This document shows positions 10,715 through 47,686 of a stretch of 64,000 nt of DNA, piece after piece (within the stretch, counting starts at the first letter, position 1; every line of letters begins with the position of its first letter). A program made the position numbers and the translations under genes. The stretch is from Nitrospiraceae bacterium (GTDB lineage: Bacteria > Nitrospirota > Nitrospiria > Nitrospirales > Nitrospiraceae): assembly GCA_013140715.1 (NCBI GenBank), contig JABFSG010000038.1, positions 1 through 64,000 on the forward strand, read 5' to 3'. The notes beneath the pieces are model-generated. The model saw only the letters and a program-made list of their open reading frames with translations, ran no database searches and was not told the DNA's origin.

Positions 10715-11614
10715 ATGTCGATTTCACCCCTCGTGCGATTCGGCACCTCCACCTGGACCTATGAAGGCTGGCAGGGCCAGATCTATCAGAGGAAGTACGC
10801 TAAGACCTCGTTTGCGCGAGAGTGCCTGGGTGAATACTGCCAGTATCAATTTCAGGGAGAGCCGCTCTTCAGGACGGTCGGAAACGACTCGACCTTCTAC
10901 CGTCCGCCCACCACGAGCCAGCTGAGACGATACCTCAATCAGATTCCTGAAGACTTCGAGATGTGCTTTAAGGTCTGGGAAGAGATCACAATTCCCAGTT
11001 ACGCGAATCAACCACGTTACGGCGTGAGGGCTGGACAACCGAATGCACGGTTCCTCGACGCAAAACTCTTCAACGACCTCGTGCTCGCTCCCTACCGCGA
11101 AGCCAAGTTCGAGCCGCACACGGGCCCCTTCCTCTTCGAGTTCCAGCGGCACGGCCTGTCTACTGAAGAGTTCTGCACACGACTCGATACCTTCTTTAGC
11201 CAACTCCCGAAAGACTTCCGCTATTCAGTCGAGATCCGCAATCCAGGCCTGCTCGGCCCCGACTACCGAGCGATGCTGGAACGGCACGGGGTAGCGCACG
11301 TCTACAATCATTGGTCCTACATGCCGTCGTTGGCGGAGCAGCATCAGACGATGAATAGTTTTAGTGCTCCGTTCACCCTGCTGCGCCTGCTCACACCACT
11401 CAAGATGACCTATGAGGCCGCAAAGAAACAGGCTGAGCCCTACAACAAGATCGTGGGAGAGCTGCCGGAGATGCGGCGGGATACGGTTGAGCTCGTGAAG
11501 AAGGCAGTGGCGGACAATCGGAAGACCTATGTGTTGGTGAACAATCGGTCGGAGGGGAATGCCCCGCTGACAATTCAAGCGTTACAAGCCGGACTGAAGG
11601 CAAAGAATCAATAA
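10715..11614 (+). CDS. DUF72 family protein
   Basis: RFGTSTWTYEGWQGQIY...; FEFQRHGL...YSVEIRNPGLLGPDY... Confidence 0.85.
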   Translation: MSISPLVRFGTSTWTYEGWQGQIYQRKYAKTSFARECLGEYCQYQFQGEPLFRTVGNDSTFYRPPTTSQLRRYLNQIPEDFEMCFKVWEEITIPSYANQPRYGVRAGQPNARFLDAKLFNDLVLAPYREAKFEPHTGPFLFEFQRHGLSTEEFCTRLDTFFSQLPKDFRYSVEIRNPGLLGPDYRAMLERHGVAHVYNHWSYMPSLAEQHQTMNSFSAPFTLLRLLTPLKMTYEAAKKQAEPYNKIVGELPEMRRDTVELVKKAVADNRKTYVLVNNRSEGNAPLTIQALQAGLKAKNQ

Positions 11615-27798: not shown

Positions 27799-30678
27799 GT
27801 GCCCAACACTACGCCCTCTTCTCACAGTCCCGGCGACCTGATCGTCGAAGGCGCGCGGCAAAATAACCTGAAAAATATCTCGCTCCGCATCCCGCACAAT
27901 CAAGTCACGGCCATCACCGGCATATCGGGATCGGGAAAATCCTCTCTCGCCTTCGATACGCTGTTCGCCGAAGGCCAATGGCGCTATGTGGAATCGCTGT
28001 CCACCTATGCCCGCATGTTTCTCGACAAGGTCAATCGGCCCGATGTCGACCGGCTGGTCAACGTGCGCCCCGCCATTGCAATCGAGCAGAAAAATCCCAT
28101 CCGCACTGCCCGTTCGACGGTCGGGACCACGACCGAAATTGCCGACCTCTTGCGGCTTCTATTCGCCAAAGTGGGCCATCCAGTCTGCCCGGATTGTTCC
28201 ATCGATGCGCGCAGCTTTCACCCCGGCAGCGTCATCAACGACCTCCTGACCCATTGCGGGGACACCCGGGCCATGATCCTGTTCCAGGTCACAGCGCCGG
28301 CGCCGAAACAGGATCAGGTCTTTCTCCAATCTCTCTTGCTCCGCGGGTTCAGCAGGGTGCGATGCGGTGCAGAAATCCTCGATCTCCACGAGACCCATAG
28401 CCTTCCCAAAACCAGACCAGACCAACTGCATGTAATCCTCGATCGGCTGGTGATACGCGAAGACAACCGACCCCGCCTCGTCGAAGCGGTCGAAACCGCG
28501 TTTCACGAGGGCGAGGGCCTGTGCCTGGTGGAAGTCATCGATCGGGGTCCCAGAACCTACAGCACGAACTTTCGCTGCCAACAATGTGCGCGCACATTCG
28601 AACCGATTCGCCCGGTCCTCTTTTCCTTCAACCATCCACTCGGCGCCTGCCCTGAGTGCAAGGGGTTCGGCAACATACTCCGCTACGATCCGGACCTCGT
28701 CATTCCCGACCACAGTAAATCCCTGGCCCAGGGAGCCATCGAACCCTGGAGCAAACCCAGCGGCGATTGGTGGCAGAAACAAATGTTCCTCTCCATGAAA
28801 AGGCGTGGGGTCGACCTCACGATCCCCTACAAGGACCTGCCGCAGCCTATCCAGCAAATCCTCTGGCAGGGGGAAGGCAAGCTGGAGGGAGTGCAACAAT
28901 TCTTCGAATACCTGGAGGGGAAGCGCTACAAGTTACATGTGCGCGTGATGCTCAGCCGCTATCGAACTCCTGTCCCCTGCCCAACCTGTAAGGAATCTCG
29001 GCTTCGACCAGATGCCCGCTATGTGAAGATCGCGGGCAGAGACATTCATGAGCTTTCTTCGCTCACAATCGAAGAGGCTGCCACTTGGATCGCAGCCCTC
29101 ACCCTCTCTCCCTATGAAGAACAGATCGCCCGCGATATTCTTCGACAACTGACGGCCAAGCTTGGCTTTCTCTTGCGAGTGGGCCTCAGTTATCTGACTC
29201 TCTCCCGTCAGACCCGCACACTCTCGGGAGGAGAGGCCCAGCGTGCTGCCTTGGCCAATCAACTTGGCGCCCGTCTGGTCGGTACTCTCTACGTCCTCGA
29301 CGAGCCGACCATCGGTCTCCACCCGCGTGACACGGCGACGCTCTCTGGCATCCTGCGAGAACTGGCAGTCCAGGGCAACACCGTGGTCGTCGTCGAACAT
29401 GACCGTCAGATGATGCGGGCAGCAGACTATCTTGTCGAGCTAGGCCCCCTGTCGGGAGAAAAAGGCGGCGAAGTGATCTGCGCTGCGCCACAAAAAGAAT
29501 TCATGGCAGACCGGCGGTCGATCACAGCTCGCTATCTGCGTGGTGAAGATGAGATTTCAGTCCCGCGATCGCGGCGGAGAGGAAACGGCAAATTTCTCGT
29601 AATAGCAGGAGCTTCCGAGCATAACCTCAAAGATTTGTTTGTGCGAATTCCGCTCGGCATGTTGGTCTGTGTGACCGGTGTCTCAGGGTCCGGCAAGAGC
29701 ACATTAGTCGAGGACACGCTCTACCGGGCCATCGCTCGCGCCTTTCGTGTCGAGTCCCTGTCCATGGGGAGGTTTCGCGCGATTAAGGGAATAGAACATC
29801 TGAGCGGCATCAAGCTCATCGATCAAGAACCGATTGGCCGGACACCTCGCTCAAATCCAATCACCTATTTAAAAGCATTCGATGAGGTCCGTTCTCTCTT
29901 CGCCTCTGAACGCGAGGCGCTCAGAAACGGACTGACTCCAGGCCATTTCTCCTTCAATACGACCGGAGGCCGGTGCGCCCGGTGCGAAGGAAGCGGCGTT
30001 GAAAAGCTCGAGATGTATTTTTTCGAAGATATCTACGCCACCTGCGAGGCCTGCGACGGGAAGCGCTTCAAACCAAACGTCCTCTCCATTCGCTATCGTG
30101 GGAAAACTATCCATGACGTGTTGCAGATGACGGCTGAGGAAGCTCTGGGGTTTTTTAGCGGCTCACCCAAGCTCACCGAAAAGCTCCATCTCCTCTCCTC
30201 CATTGGCCTCGGCTATCTGCGGCTCGGCCAGTCTGCGACGACCCTCTCAGGCGGCGAGGCTCAGCGGTTGAAAATCGCCGCAGAGCTGACGAATGGGGGA
30301 CTGTCACGACAAAGGCCTTCCCCCCTTCCCTCTCGGACGCTTAGGAACAGGCACCAGCCAGGCCGGAGCCAATCCCCAAGCATGCTCTACATCATGGACG
30401 AGCCGACCACCGGACTGCACGTCGAAGACATCAAAAAACTCCTGGCGATGCTGCAGAAACTGGTGGACAGCGGTAATACCCTGGTAGTCGTGGAACACAA
30501 TCTCGACATCATCAAGTCGGCAGACTGGATTATCGATCTAGGCCCGGAAGGCGGCGCAGCAGGCGGGCAGATTGTCGCAGAAGGACGCCCCGAACAGGTG
30601 GCGAAGGTAGCAGCTTCTTACACCGGGCAGTTCCTAGCAGACGCGCTCATGCCGGCCTCGGACAAGAGTGGTTCCTGA
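27799..30678 (+). CDS. uvrA: UvrA-family excinuclease ATPase, with extra segment between second signature motif and Walker B
   Basis: GISGSGKSSLAFDTLFAEGQ, VNVRPAIAIEQK, LSGGEAQR twice, CxxC zinc modules; start codon not certain. Confidence 0.9.
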   Translation: MPNTTPSSHSPGDLIVEGARQNNLKNISLRIPHNQVTAITGISGSGKSSLAFDTLFAEGQWRYVESLSTYARMFLDKVNRPDVDRLVNVRPAIAIEQKNPIRTARSTVGTTTEIADLLRLLFAKVGHPVCPDCSIDARSFHPGSVINDLLTHCGDTRAMILFQVTAPAPKQDQVFLQSLLLRGFSRVRCGAEILDLHETHSLPKTRPDQLHVILDRLVIREDNRPRLVEAVETAFHEGEGLCLVEVIDRGPRTYSTNFRCQQCARTFEPIRPVLFSFNHPLGACPECKGFGNILRYDPDLVIPDHSKSLAQGAIEPWSKPSGDWWQKQMFLSMKRRGVDLTIPYKDLPQPIQQILWQGEGKLEGVQQFFEYLEGKRYKLHVRVMLSRYRTPVPCPTCKESRLRPDARYVKIAGRDIHELSSLTIEEAATWIAALTLSPYEEQIARDILRQLTAKLGFLLRVGLSYLTLSRQTRTLSGGEAQRAALANQLGARLVGTLYVLDEPTIGLHPRDTATLSGILRELAVQGNTVVVVEHDRQMMRAADYLVELGPLSGEKGGEVICAAPQKEFMADRRSITARYLRGEDEISVPRSRRRGNGKFLVIAGASEHNLKDLFVRIPLGMLVCVTGVSGSGKSTLVEDTLYRAIARAFRVESLSMGRFRAIKGIEHLSGIKLIDQEPIGRTPRSNPITYLKAFDEVRSLFASEREALRNGLTPGHFSFNTTGGRCARCEGSGVEKLEMYFFEDIYATCEACDGKRFKPNVLSIRYRGKTIHDVLQMTAEEALGFFSGSPKLTEKLHLLSSIGLGYLRLGQSATTLSGGEAQRLKIAAELTNGGLSRQRPSPLPSRTLRNRHQPGRSQSPSMLYIMDEPTTGLHVEDIKKLLAMLQKLVDSGNTLVVVEHNLDIIKSADWIIDLGPEGGAAGGQIVAEGRPEQVAKVAASYTGQFLADALMPASDKSGS

Positions 30679-43153: not shown

Positions 43154-45340
43154 TTAGGAGCGTTCCTGCCAGGCCCGCATCCGTCTCGCCGTAATCACCC
43201 CATCCACACGTTCAACAGCCTTGAGCACCTGCCCCAGATGGCGAGTGTCTGAAACCTCCACGACAAAATCCAGTAGCGCCTTCTGATCCTCCCTTGTCGT
43301 AATTTCAGCGCGGCTGATGTTGGCATGGCATTCCGCAATCGCGGAAGACACGTTGGCCAATACCCCGGTCTTATCGACAGCCACAATGGACATCTTGACC
43401 GAGTGGGTGCTGGGTGTGGCAGAGTCCCACTCCACTTCCACCAACCGCTCCTTATCGTAGTCCAGTGCCTCAAGATTCGGGCAATCGACAGCATGGATCG
43501 TCAGCCCACGGCCACGAGTGATATATCCGAGAATCCGGTCTCCCGGCACGGGATGACAGCAGCGTGACAGTTGCATCAACAGATCTCGAGACCCCTTGAC
43601 CTGTACACCGGTGCTATCGCTCTTCCCGCCTATCGCTTTATTCGCGGCGGGACGCTCTTGAGCCGAAGCCGGCGCCGATGCGCCGGCCAATGGAGCCGTG
43701 AGTTTGCCTATGACCTGCGAGGTTGCCACGCGGCCGAAGCCCACCGCCGCAGCCAATTCGTCGGTACTGTCGAACCCGGATTGACGAGCAGCCTCTAAGA
43801 GCTCTGCCGATTTGAACATCTTGGCCGGCGCCATCCCCTGACGGCGGAACTCCGACTCCAGCAAGCGCCGACCGATTTCGATACTCCGTTTCTGTTCTTC
43901 AAGCTTGATCCAATGTTTGATCTTGGTCTTCGCACGAGAAGTACGGACAAATTTTAGCCAGTCTTTGTGTGGCGACTGCGTGGGAGACGTCAGAATTTCA
44001 ACCATATCTCCACTGGCCAGTTGATACTTCAGGGGCACAATCTTTCCGTCTACTTTAGCCCCGACACAATGGTCCCCGACTTCGGTATGAATCGCAAAGG
44101 CAAAATCGACCGGTGTCGATCCTCGCGGCAACTCTTTCACAATCCCTTTGGGCGTAAACACATAGACCACATCGTGAAAAAGGTCGAGCTTCACCGAGTC
44201 CATGAACTGCCGGTTATCCGTCATATCCTCATGCCATTCGACGAACTGGTGCAGCCAACCGAAGGCCTTGCTGTCACGATCTGCCACGTGGCCCTGCTCT
44301 TTATACTTCCAGTGCGCGGCGATTCCGTGCTCGGCAATACGATGCATATCCTCCGTACGGATTTGGAATTCGACATGCTCCCCCTTCGGGCCCACCACCG
44401 TCGTATGCAGCGATTGATAGAGGTTGGACTTTGGAATCGCAATGTAGTCCTTAAAACGCCCTGGCACGGGCCGCCAGGCTGAATGAATCACTCCAAGAAC
44501 GGCGTAGCAATTCATCTTCGTATCGGTCACGATCCGTAGCGCAGTGAGGTCATAGACCTCTTCGAACGTAATCGACTGTTTATTCATCTTTTGGTAAATG
44601 CCGTAAAGATGCTTGGGCCGGCCGTAGACCTGTCCGACCAACCCGTTCTCTTCCATAGCCTTCTGCACCAGCCTCCTGACTTCATCGATATACTGCTGCC
44701 GATCCTCATCCCGTTTTGCCACACGGACAAGTAACGTTTCGTAGACATCGGGTTTGAGATGCTTGAGACAGAGGTCTTCCAGCTCATTCTTGATCCACCC
44801 GATGCCAAGGCGATTTGCCAACGGCGCGTAAATCTCCAGCGTCTCCTGGGCGATCTCCTGCCGCTTGGCCGGGCGGAGATGTTCCAACGTGCGCATGTTG
44901 TGCAACCGATCGGCAAGCTTAATGAGGACGACCCGAATGTCGTCCGCCATCGACAAGAGCATCTTACGGAAGTTCTCCGCCTGTTTTTCCTCATAACTCC
45001 GAAACGTGATCTTGCCGATCTTGGTGACCCCATCGACCAGATGCACGACGTCCTTTCCGAACTCTCTTTCGAGTTCATCAGGCGTCGCGACCGTATCTTC
45101 GAGGGTATCGTGCAGCAGCGCTGCGACGATGGCGGTGACATCGGTTTTGAGCGAGGTGAGGACTCCGGCGACGGCGATGGGATGTTGGACGTAGGGCTCT
45201 CCGGACAGACGACGTTGGCCTACATGAGCTTTCGCTGAAAACTCGTAGGCCTTGCGAACGAGACCGACGTCCGCATCGGCGTGATAGCTCTTGATCCGAT
45301 CCAGCAGCTGATCGAGACCTGTGACGGTTTCGTATACCAT
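43154..45340 (-). CDS. rel: RelA/SpoT-family bifunctional (p)ppGpp synthetase/hydrolase
   Basis: HD domain HDTLEDT, synthetase RIVTDTKMNCY..LG.IHS.WRPVPGRFKDYIAIPK, TGS and ACT domains. Confidence 0.96.
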   Translation of the reverse strand: MVYETVTGLDQLLDRIKSYHADADVGLVRKAYEFSAKAHVGQRRLSGEPYVQHPIAVAGVLTSLKTDVTAIVAALLHDTLEDTVATPDELEREFGKDVVHLVDGVTKIGKITFRSYEEKQAENFRKMLLSMADDIRVVLIKLADRLHNMRTLEHLRPAKRQEIAQETLEIYAPLANRLGIGWIKNELEDLCLKHLKPDVYETLLVRVAKRDEDRQQYIDEVRRLVQKAMEENGLVGQVYGRPKHLYGIYQKMNKQSITFEEVYDLTALRIVTDTKMNCYAVLGVIHSAWRPVPGRFKDYIAIPKSNLYQSLHTTVVGPKGEHVEFQIRTEDMHRIAEHGIAAHWKYKEQGHVADRDSKAFGWLHQFVEWHEDMTDNRQFMDSVKLDLFHDVVYVFTPKGIVKELPRGSTPVDFAFAIHTEVGDHCVGAKVDGKIVPLKYQLASGDMVEILTSPTQSPHKDWLKFVRTSRAKTKIKHWIKLEEQKRSIEIGRRLLESEFRRQGMAPAKMFKSAELLEAARQSGFDSTDELAAAVGFGRVATSQVIGKLTAPLAGASAPASAQERPAANKAIGGKSDSTGVQVKGSRDLLMQLSRCCHPVPGDRILGYITRGRGLTIHAVDCPNLEALDYDKERLVEVEWDSATPSTHSVKMSIVAVDKTGVLANVSSAIAECHANISRAEITTREDQKALLDFVVEVSDTRHLGQVLKAVERVDGVITARRMRAWQERS

Positions 45341-45355
45341 GGTTCACTCACCGAT

Positions 45356-47053
45356 TTACTCGCCTACACTCGGCCGAACGTCGCGAATGCGAAGCTGGAT
45401 TCGATCTCGCCCATTCCAGTGATTCAGTTCCGGCGTGAAGGCCAGATCGACCGGGGTGCGTGACGGGATACCCCGTTCCAGCAACGACTTCATGCCGAAT
45501 CCAATACTATCGAACGGCGGCGAAGTCCCTTGCCGCACGGTCATCTTCAGATGTTTCTCACCGACCGTACGCGAATCCATGACGTCGAGACCGGTCACTG
45601 CAAACGTCGGCTCTGGATTGCCTGCGCCGAACGGATACAGCGAACCGATTTCCTGGATCAATTGCAGATTCACTTCATCCAGACGCACTTCGGCATCGAC
45701 GGTTAATGTTGGAACTTTCGCTCCATCCTCGGTCCATCTTGCCGCCACCTCGGAAAATCTGGAACGAAACTCGTCGATCCGGGACTCTCGAATAGTCACC
45801 CCAGCGGCGCTCGGATGCCCGCCGAACGATTCCAGCATCTCCCGGCAAGCGGCCAACCCTTGATAGAGGTCGAACCCGCCGGTCGTCCTGGCCGAGCCTT
45901 TGGCCATGCCCTGCTCATTGATAGCCATAACAATGGCCGGGCGCTGAAACCGATCGACCAGACGCGCCGCCACGATACCGACCACCCCCAGATGCCAGTG
46001 TCTGGAAGCCAGTACGAGCGCAGGCGACAATTCTCGATCCTTCAGAGAAGCCAGCGCTTCCGCCATGATATCCACTTCGATGCGTTGCCGCTCCCGATTC
46101 AGCTGTTCAAGCCTGTCTGCCAACTGTTGCGCCTCGGCCGGGTTGTCGGTCGTCAACAACCGTACACCCAACATGGCATCGTCCAATCGTCCGGCGGCAT
46201 TGATACGCGGCGCCAGCTTGAACGCGATCGTCTCCGCCGTGCAGTCCCGCGTCACCCCCGCAACCTGCTTCAACGTCCGAACGCCGCAACGAGAGCCACG
46301 CGACAGCTGCACCAATCCCTCTCGTACAAAATTTCGATTCTCATCGTGCAACGGGACGACATCCGCAACCGTCGCCAAGGCCACAAGATCGAGCAACGAC
46401 TCCAGCGGCACACCAGCGACTCCGTAGCGCATCTGATAGGCCTGCGCTACCTTATAGGCCAAGGCAGCGGAACAGAGACCGCGAAAAGGATAGAGGGCAC
46501 CGACTCGATGGGGATTGAGCACCGCCACAGCCTGCGGCATGTCCTCGTCGGTCTGGTGATGGTCTGTGACCACCACATCCATGCCAAGCTGTGCGGCTAA
46601 CGCAATTTCTTTATGCGAAGTCGTACCGCAATCGGAGGTCACCAGAAGGGAGATGCCTTCGTCATATAGACGCTGAACGGCTCCTAGATTGAGTCCATAG
46701 CCCTCGCGCAGACGATGGGGGACATAGGCTCGAACCTGCGCGCCCAACCCGCCAAAGAACGACATGTAGAGACTGGTTGCGGTAATCCCATCGACATCGT
46801 AATCGCCGTAGAAACAGATCGGCTCCCGAGTCGTCACGGCACGGTGCAATCGTTCGACCGCCTGCTCCATGTCTGGGATCAAAAACGGATCGTGCGGTGT
46901 CTGCAGCGACATCCAGATCGTGGCTTCATCCGGCGTGGTCACGCCACGAGCCAGAAACAACGACGCGGTGACCGGAGAAATCGAGAGAGCCTGAGCCAAC
47001 GAAGCCCGCTGGGACAGATTGATATCGCGAAAGACCCAGAGCTTGGACTTCAT
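45356..47053 (-). CDS. recJ: Single-stranded-DNA exonuclease RecJ
   Basis: YGDYDVDGITATS, TSDCGT, VVTDHHQTDEDMP, LAPRINAAGRL, GGHPSAAGVTI. Confidence 0.96.
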   Translation of the reverse strand: MKSKLWVFRDINLSQRASLAQALSISPVTASLFLARGVTTPDEATIWMSLQTPHDPFLIPDMEQAVERLHRAVTTREPICFYGDYDVDGITATSLYMSFFGGLGAQVRAYVPHRLREGYGLNLGAVQRLYDEGISLLVTSDCGTTSHKEIALAAQLGMDVVVTDHHQTDEDMPQAVAVLNPHRVGALYPFRGLCSAALAYKVAQAYQMRYGVAGVPLESLLDLVALATVADVVPLHDENRNFVREGLVQLSRGSRCGVRTLKQVAGVTRDCTAETIAFKLAPRINAAGRLDDAMLGVRLLTTDNPAEAQQLADRLEQLNRERQRIEVDIMAEALASLKDRELSPALVLASRHWHLGVVGIVAARLVDRFQRPAIVMAINEQGMAKGSARTTGGFDLYQGLAACREMLESFGGHPSAAGVTIRESRIDEFRSRFSEVAARWTEDGAKVPTLTVDAEVRLDEVNLQLIQEIGSLYPFGAGNPEPTFAVTGLDVMDSRTVGEKHLKMTVRQGTSPPFDSIGFGMKSLLERGIPSRTPVDLAFTPELNHWNGRDRIQLRIRDVRPSVGE

Positions 47054-47152
47054 GAAAGCCTCGTCAAATATCTTGAGCTAAAGAGAAGCTAACTATCTGA
47101 GAATTAAAGGGATACTAGCCGCTCAGCCCGGCGTTGTCAAACTGGAGGGACG

Positions 47153-47251
47153 GGTTGATCTGATTTATTTAGTTTGTTTTGTTCATTTGGTTCATCTGCT
47201 TCAATCAAACAAACCAACCAAATAGACCAACCAAACCAGAGCAACCAGCCG
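47153..47251. repeat. Intergenic palindrome family W, copy 4
   Basis: ttgatctgatttatttagtttgttttgttcatttggttcatctgcttcaatcaaacaaaccaaccaaatagaccaaccaaaccagagcaacca. Confidence 0.7.
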
Positions 47252-47334
47252 GTGTTGTTTCAGCATCCTGCGAAACACTGGAGCGTGATGAGGAGGAAGG
47301 AACGGGAAGGAGTATGTCTGCTCAACTACTGAGA

Positions 47335-47532
47335 CTACTCCCCCCCTTTTTGCACATAGTTCTTCACGAATTCTTCTGCGTTCGTTTCGAGTACGTCGTC
47401 GATTTCATCTACGAGCTTATCGATGTCTTCTTTTAATTTTTTACCGGCTTCGACGACTTTGGGATTCGCCTTGACCTCTTCCTTCCCCTGAGGCTCTCGC
47501 CTGGGTTCCTGTTTACGTTCTTGTTTCTCCAT
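47335..47532 (-). CDS. Prokaryotic ubiquitin-like protein (Pup/UBact), C-terminal GGE
   Basis: MEKQERKQEPRREPQGKEEVKANPKVVEAGKKLKEDIDKLVDEIDDVLETNAEEFVKNYVQKGGE; DEIDDVLExNAEEFVxxYVQKGG is the Pup C-terminal signature; GGGAGG RBS upstream of internal ATG. Confidence 0.9.
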   Translation of the reverse strand: MEKQERKQEPRREPQGKEEVKANPKVVEAGKKLKEDIDKLVDEIDDVLETNAEEFVKNYVQKGGE

Positions 47533-47686
47533 CCGAGCACCTCCCGTGATTCTGGGAAACCCTCGTGGACCAGCCACCAGCATGATCCCGTACGATCACC
47601 TTACTCTATGATTCTTTTAACCGTCAAGCCGAGCATGGAAACGTGAAACATGAAACTCGCAACGAGAGACGCTGATCTCGTCGTTC

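Follow-up and report, generated by a model that had tools for sequence, protein, structure and literature searches.

Pup is a largely disordered protein. Its gene has been described as invariably adjacent to the PafA gene (PMC2588565), and it usually follows dop and precedes prcB (PMC3511204). A Pup with a C-terminal Glu needs no deamidation, as is known from the pathway (PMC7947786). UBact was reported by Lehmann et al. 2017, as cited in PMC12751074. According to a 2026 review (PMC13022661), Nitrospirales species encode only one subunit of each type, alpha and beta.

We analyzed a 64 kb stretch of DNA (the window), which begins at base 1 of contig C36 of a draft genome (3.58 Mb, 105 contigs, 99.7% complete). 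An earlier note on the window had reported a Pup ORF ending in GGE at 47335-47532, with recJ and hppA as neighbors. The coordinates were right, the ORF is on the minus strand, and both neighbors were recovered as ORFs. The genes of the locus are as follows:

47335..47532, minus strand: pup, 65 aa, MEKQERKQEPRREPQGKEEVKANPKVVEAGKKLKEDIDKLVDEIDDVLETNAEEFVKNYVQKGGE, TAG stop; matches PF05639 and TIGR03687; sole Pup of the genome
47687..49741, minus strand: hppA (membrane pyrophosphatase), upstream neighbor, from ORF and synteny; its end lies 154 bp from the pup ATG
45356..47053, minus strand: recJ, downstream neighbor, from ORF and synteny; 281 bp gap to pup
43154..45340, minus strand: relA/spoT-type gene, from ORF and synteny; 15 bp after recJ

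In the ORF table of the window, pup starts with the ATG at 47532 and stops with the TAG at 47337-47335 on the minus strand. Its product scored above the curated cut-offs of both the Pfam Pup profile PF05639 (E 1.3e-21, 77.7 bits, cut-off 27) and the NCBIfam profile TIGR03687 (E 1.6e-17, 63.2 bits, cut-off 41.45), and its C-terminal 39 residues align with solved mycobacterial-type Pup chains. At 65 aa and with a GGE end, it falls within the 60-70 residues and C-terminal Gly-Gly-Glu or Gly-Gly-Gln by which Pup is recognized. Since all related genomes have the ORF at the same position, with 61-100% identity, we consider it real rather than a chance reading frame. An alternative in-frame ATG upstream, at 47583, would give an 82-aa Pup; the 65-aa start was preferred because its ribosome-binding site is conserved and the start is common to the relatives. 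The UBact profiles (PF20513 and NF033388) gave no match to the window protein, which rules out the UBact identity raised in the earlier note, and the genome's UBact is a separate gene on contig C66. The suggestion of a second copy was also discarded, as a genome-wide search with PF05639 found exactly one Pup, the window gene.

The statement that no ligase, Dop, or proteasome gene accompanies pup stood for the 64 kb, in which PF05639, PF03136, and PF00227 matched nothing else, but not for the genome. A separate contig, C16, carries mpa-dop-prcB-prcA-pafA in one operon (L009, 6144-12817). No pup was found in this operon, where the gap between dop and prcB is only 28 bp. The encoded Mpa (739 bits), Dop (555), PafA (564), PrcA (305), and PrcB (298.9 against 191.9) all exceed their curated equivalog cut-offs. 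Solved homologues align with almost all of PafA and Dop and with Mpa from residue 82 onward, and the Mpa C-terminus, TGHYL, was read by eye as a GQYL-like proteasome-docking motif. The cognate PafA, Dop, and Mpa expected for a Pup are thus encoded in the same genome.

Genome-wide, we found four PafA/Dop homologues (PF03136) and two prcB/prcA pairs (PF00227). Contig C66 (L010, C66:1-5908) carries an Mpa-like ATPase, Dop-like and PafA-like proteins that are both PF03136 members, PrcB, PrcA, and UBact, the last of 73 aa with an RTGE end (NF033388, E 3.4e-23; C66:2545-2670). The Mpa-like ATPase (L010:1-852) is truncated by the contig end, beyond which its N-terminal part lies, and it ends in INQII, not in a GQYL-like motif.

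Using probes for recJ, hppA, relA, and the proteins of the operon, we compared synteny across 49 Nitrospirales genomes (44 from the window's family and 5 from a second family, 12 genera in all). We found pup outside the operon in 49/49. The recJ-pup-hppA arrangement proved to be shared with relatives: pup lies immediately upstream of recJ-relA in 48/49, and hppA is on its other side in 44/44 members of the window's family and in some of the second, where G068, G056, and G115 have different genes upstream of pup. The same arrangement of pup recurs on named Nitrospira contigs from GTDB. In contrast, pup lies between dop and prcB in 19 other Nitrospirota (families f3-f8, f15, and f16), and it was not found beside recJ-relA in the three outgroups where recJ-relA was located. 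Because pup is detached in all sampled Nitrospirales and operonic in these other Nitrospirota, the simplest history is a single relocation out of the dop-pup-prcB operon, before the order Nitrospirales diversified. The earlier idea of a relocated modifier is borne out by this outgroup order and by the position of pup beside recJ or relA in every sampled member of the order. In one small-genome relative (G143, L078), recJ has been lost and pup lies beside relA.

Where pup and dop share a contig, most members of the window's family have them about 40-62 kb apart; in genus g3 the interval is 129-218 kb, in G068 it is 88 kb, and in G115 it reaches 1.4 Mb. Both genes are on one strand wherever this was compared. 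In G070, which belongs to the same genus as the window, pup and dop again share a strand, with pup 49.6 kb upstream. Window positions 27830-49757 and contig C16 are each collinear with the pup-dop stretch of G070, and for the window this collinearity breaks near 27830. A proteasome operon just past the window edge was considered and set aside, as a join of C36 to C16 failed to emerge from the G070 collinearity.

Detached Pup genes were also seen outside Nitrospirales. Three NC10/Rokubacteria-type genomes (G150, G151, and G152; L128, L129, L135, L192, L197-L202) have a detached pup too, in two to three copies; the G152 operon has no recognizable pup between dop and prcB, and one of its Pups ends in GGQ and another in GGE. 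Here the separation seems to have arisen in parallel and independently. On a contig labelled Azambacteria (L126, MEYP01000003.1), a Pup with 63% identity to that of the window lies near a dnaJ-like gene, with no ligase within the 12.8 kb examined, and represents either a transfer or a mis-binned contig. A contig labelled Nitrospinota (L124, JADFRB010000100.1) has the Nitrospirales arrangement pup-recJ-relA and is likely a misassigned bin.

Four candidate expression signals were noted around pup:

47538..47545, minus strand: strong Shine-Dalgarno of pup, GGGAGGTG; GGAGGTGCTC nearly invariant across the family
47534..47565, minus strand: predicted hairpin pairing the Shine-Dalgarno (CGAG-n-GTTTCCC / GGGAGGTG-CTCG); prediction only
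47598..47627, minus strand: promoter-like element of pup, TTGACG-N18-TAAGGT; position and sequence conserved in Nitrospirales
47112..47140, minus strand: promoter-like TTGACA-N17-TAGTAT upstream of recJ; 10/12 matches, 1 found with 0.6 expected

The common upstream pattern, TTGAC[G/C]-N17/18-TAnnnT, lies about 72-101 bp before the pup ATG in nearly all Nitrospirales, whose pup upstream regions are otherwise unalignable. A loose form of the pattern was present at 48/49 relocated pups (0.28 expected from shuffles) versus 0/19 operonic pups, and a strict form at 45/49 versus 0/19; as the pattern was written after inspecting the same, related sequences, these counts describe conservation and are no blind test. 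The site at 47112..47140 suggests that recJ-relA has its own transcription start. The predicted hairpin is strong in genera g1, g2, and g7 and absent in g3. Accessibility drops similarly at hppA starts, used as a control gene, and the Shine-Dalgarno arm hardly varies among relatives, leaving no room for covariation. Because the control behaves alike and the paired arm is nearly invariant, we treat the hairpin as a lead only.

Between pup and recJ, window positions 47147-47253 form a long, imperfect inverted repeat of the TTGGTTGGTTTG type, and a similar-looking repeat occurs between prcA and pafA on C16 (L009, about 11270-11400). The element is probably a dispersed intergenic repeat. An Rfam scan returned only sub-threshold microRNA-like and similar matches, mostly on the repeat at 47147-47253, which were taken as chance.

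Among 43 family members with Pups of equal length, the median dN/dS of pup was 0.03. At equal pS, pN was 0.019 in the C-terminal half (the C-terminal 35 residues) versus 0.113 in the N-terminal part. These measures indicate strong purifying selection on the relocated pup, whose C-terminal half is almost unchanged. The scenario of a decaying duplicate, which the earlier note had tied to an operon carrying its own pup, was ruled out by this dN/dS, and the operon that was found is pup-less.

The Pup C-terminus is GGE in 43/44 and GGQ in 1/44 members of the window's family, while in the second family GGE and GGQ stand at 3 to 2. The earlier remark that a Pup with a C-terminal Glu need not be deamidated by Dop was sound, yet the Pups of G027, G111, and G115 end in GGQ, and the PafA/Dop genes are kept in all three. 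Across the sampled sequences, then, the Glu end is not a fixed property, and the residue flips among relatives. Retention of the PafA/Dop pair while this residue flips is consistent with Dop acting as a depupylase.

The window gene thus very probably encodes the sole working Pup for a Pup-proteasome system that is canonical in other respects, and it would have moved once in the Nitrospirales ancestor and be expressed from its own sigma-70-type promoter. This reading draws on sequence-based evidence, namely the identity, uniqueness, relocation, and conservation of the gene, its promoter-like element, the complete, pup-less partner operon, and their strict co-occurrence. In the mechanism we propose, pup would be transcribed upstream of recJ-relA, apart from the enzymes, and Pup would be supplied in trans to the C16 machinery. 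PafA would activate Pup and attach it to lysines; no deamidation would have to come first, since the window Pup already ends in Glu. Dop would serve mainly as a depupylase. Mpa, with its GHYL C-terminus, would capture the coiled-coil part of Pup and pass tagged proteins to the PrcB/PrcA core for degradation. Separate transcription would allow the cell to adjust Pup supply on its own, uncoupled from both the machinery and the parallel UBact system, which makes separate regulation of pup plausible.

Coexistence of the two systems in one genome, with Dop-like and PafA-like proteins of C66 that belong to PF03136, raises the question of whether the detached Pup is a second tag for the UBact enzymes or is common to both systems. 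We consider this very unlikely, as the C66 operon has a UBact of its own and the distribution of the genes separates the two systems. Of 150 Nitrospirota genomes surveyed, 72 carry Pup, 57 carry UBact, and 73 carry PafA/Dop. Genomes with Pup only have two PafA/Dop homologues and those with both tags have four; the few exceptions, such as G085 (3), G060 (6), and G057 (5), are put down to draft assembly. The detached pup persists without UBact in G121, G143, G145, G056, and G068, where a single PafA/Dop pair is left as the only possible partner, and G019 shows the reverse, with UBact and its two ligase homologues present and Pup absent. Because Pup-only genomes keep exactly one PafA/Dop pair, the detached pup is tied to C16-type enzymes. 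A proteasome-independent role, with Pup as a relic or orphan such as a free regulatory peptide tied to recJ/relA, would fit a gene that is unlinked from its enzymes and constantly beside recJ-relA. We regard it as remote, given that the most constrained part of the protein is the C-terminal 35 residues that align to Pup in solved complexes. Moreover, no genome among the 49 Nitrospirales was seen with a detached pup yet convincingly without the canonical operon; G085 is missing one ligase and one prcB, but its assembly is a draft of 100 contigs.

The remaining alternative is that pup is co-transcribed with hppA upstream or recJ-relA downstream, so that the move only switched operons. It is compatible with the preferred reading of a sole, relocated Pup in all but the independent promoter, and the shared strand of hppA, pup, and recJ and their short gaps (154 and 281 bp) speak for it. 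We nevertheless judge it unlikely, in view of the conserved promoter-like element upstream of pup in 48/49 genomes, the further such element between pup and recJ in the window, and the lack of conservation on the hppA side in G068, G056, and G115. For the preferred reading, a broader interpretation is that Nitrospirales may have uncoupled pup so that Pup supply became a separate control point, through its own promoter and, in three genera, the hairpin over the ribosome-binding site, with two tagging systems of the Pup type and two distinct 20S proteasomes operating in the same cells. We offer this only tentatively and hold it to be somewhat doubtful.

The tag and its enzymes are already known, but no earlier report was found, in the literature searched (without subscription papers and preprints), of a clade-wide detachment of pup from its operon with a conserved promoter-like element of its own. 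The window Pup shares its length, its GG[E/Q] end, and a helical C-terminal region with those of actinobacteria and Nitrospirota, but its gene, in the order hppA-pup-recJ, has neither dop, prcB, nor pafA beside it, in contrast to usual Pup loci. Compared to the canonical operon mpa-dop-pup-prcB-prcA-pafA of outgroup Nitrospirota (L092-L097), C16 has the same genes in the same order but no pup in the dop-prcB gap. The UBact system (PF20513, NF033388) on C66 is a parallel one, with its own Dop-like, PafA-like, PrcB, PrcA, and Mpa-like genes; its tag is of a different family, with an RTGE end, and unlike the window pup it stays in its operon. Two PrcB genes, one per tagging system, are present in 43/49 Nitrospirales, the UBact-operon PrcB scoring lower with PrcB profiles, which contradicts the single-beta statement of the 2026 review (PMC13022661). 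The questions this raises are how two tags and two proteasomes are kept apart within one bacterium and whether tag supply is separately regulated. Collectively, the unlinked pup of an entire order departs from both the invariable linkage to the PafA gene (PMC2588565) and the usual dop-pup-prcB order (PMC3511204).
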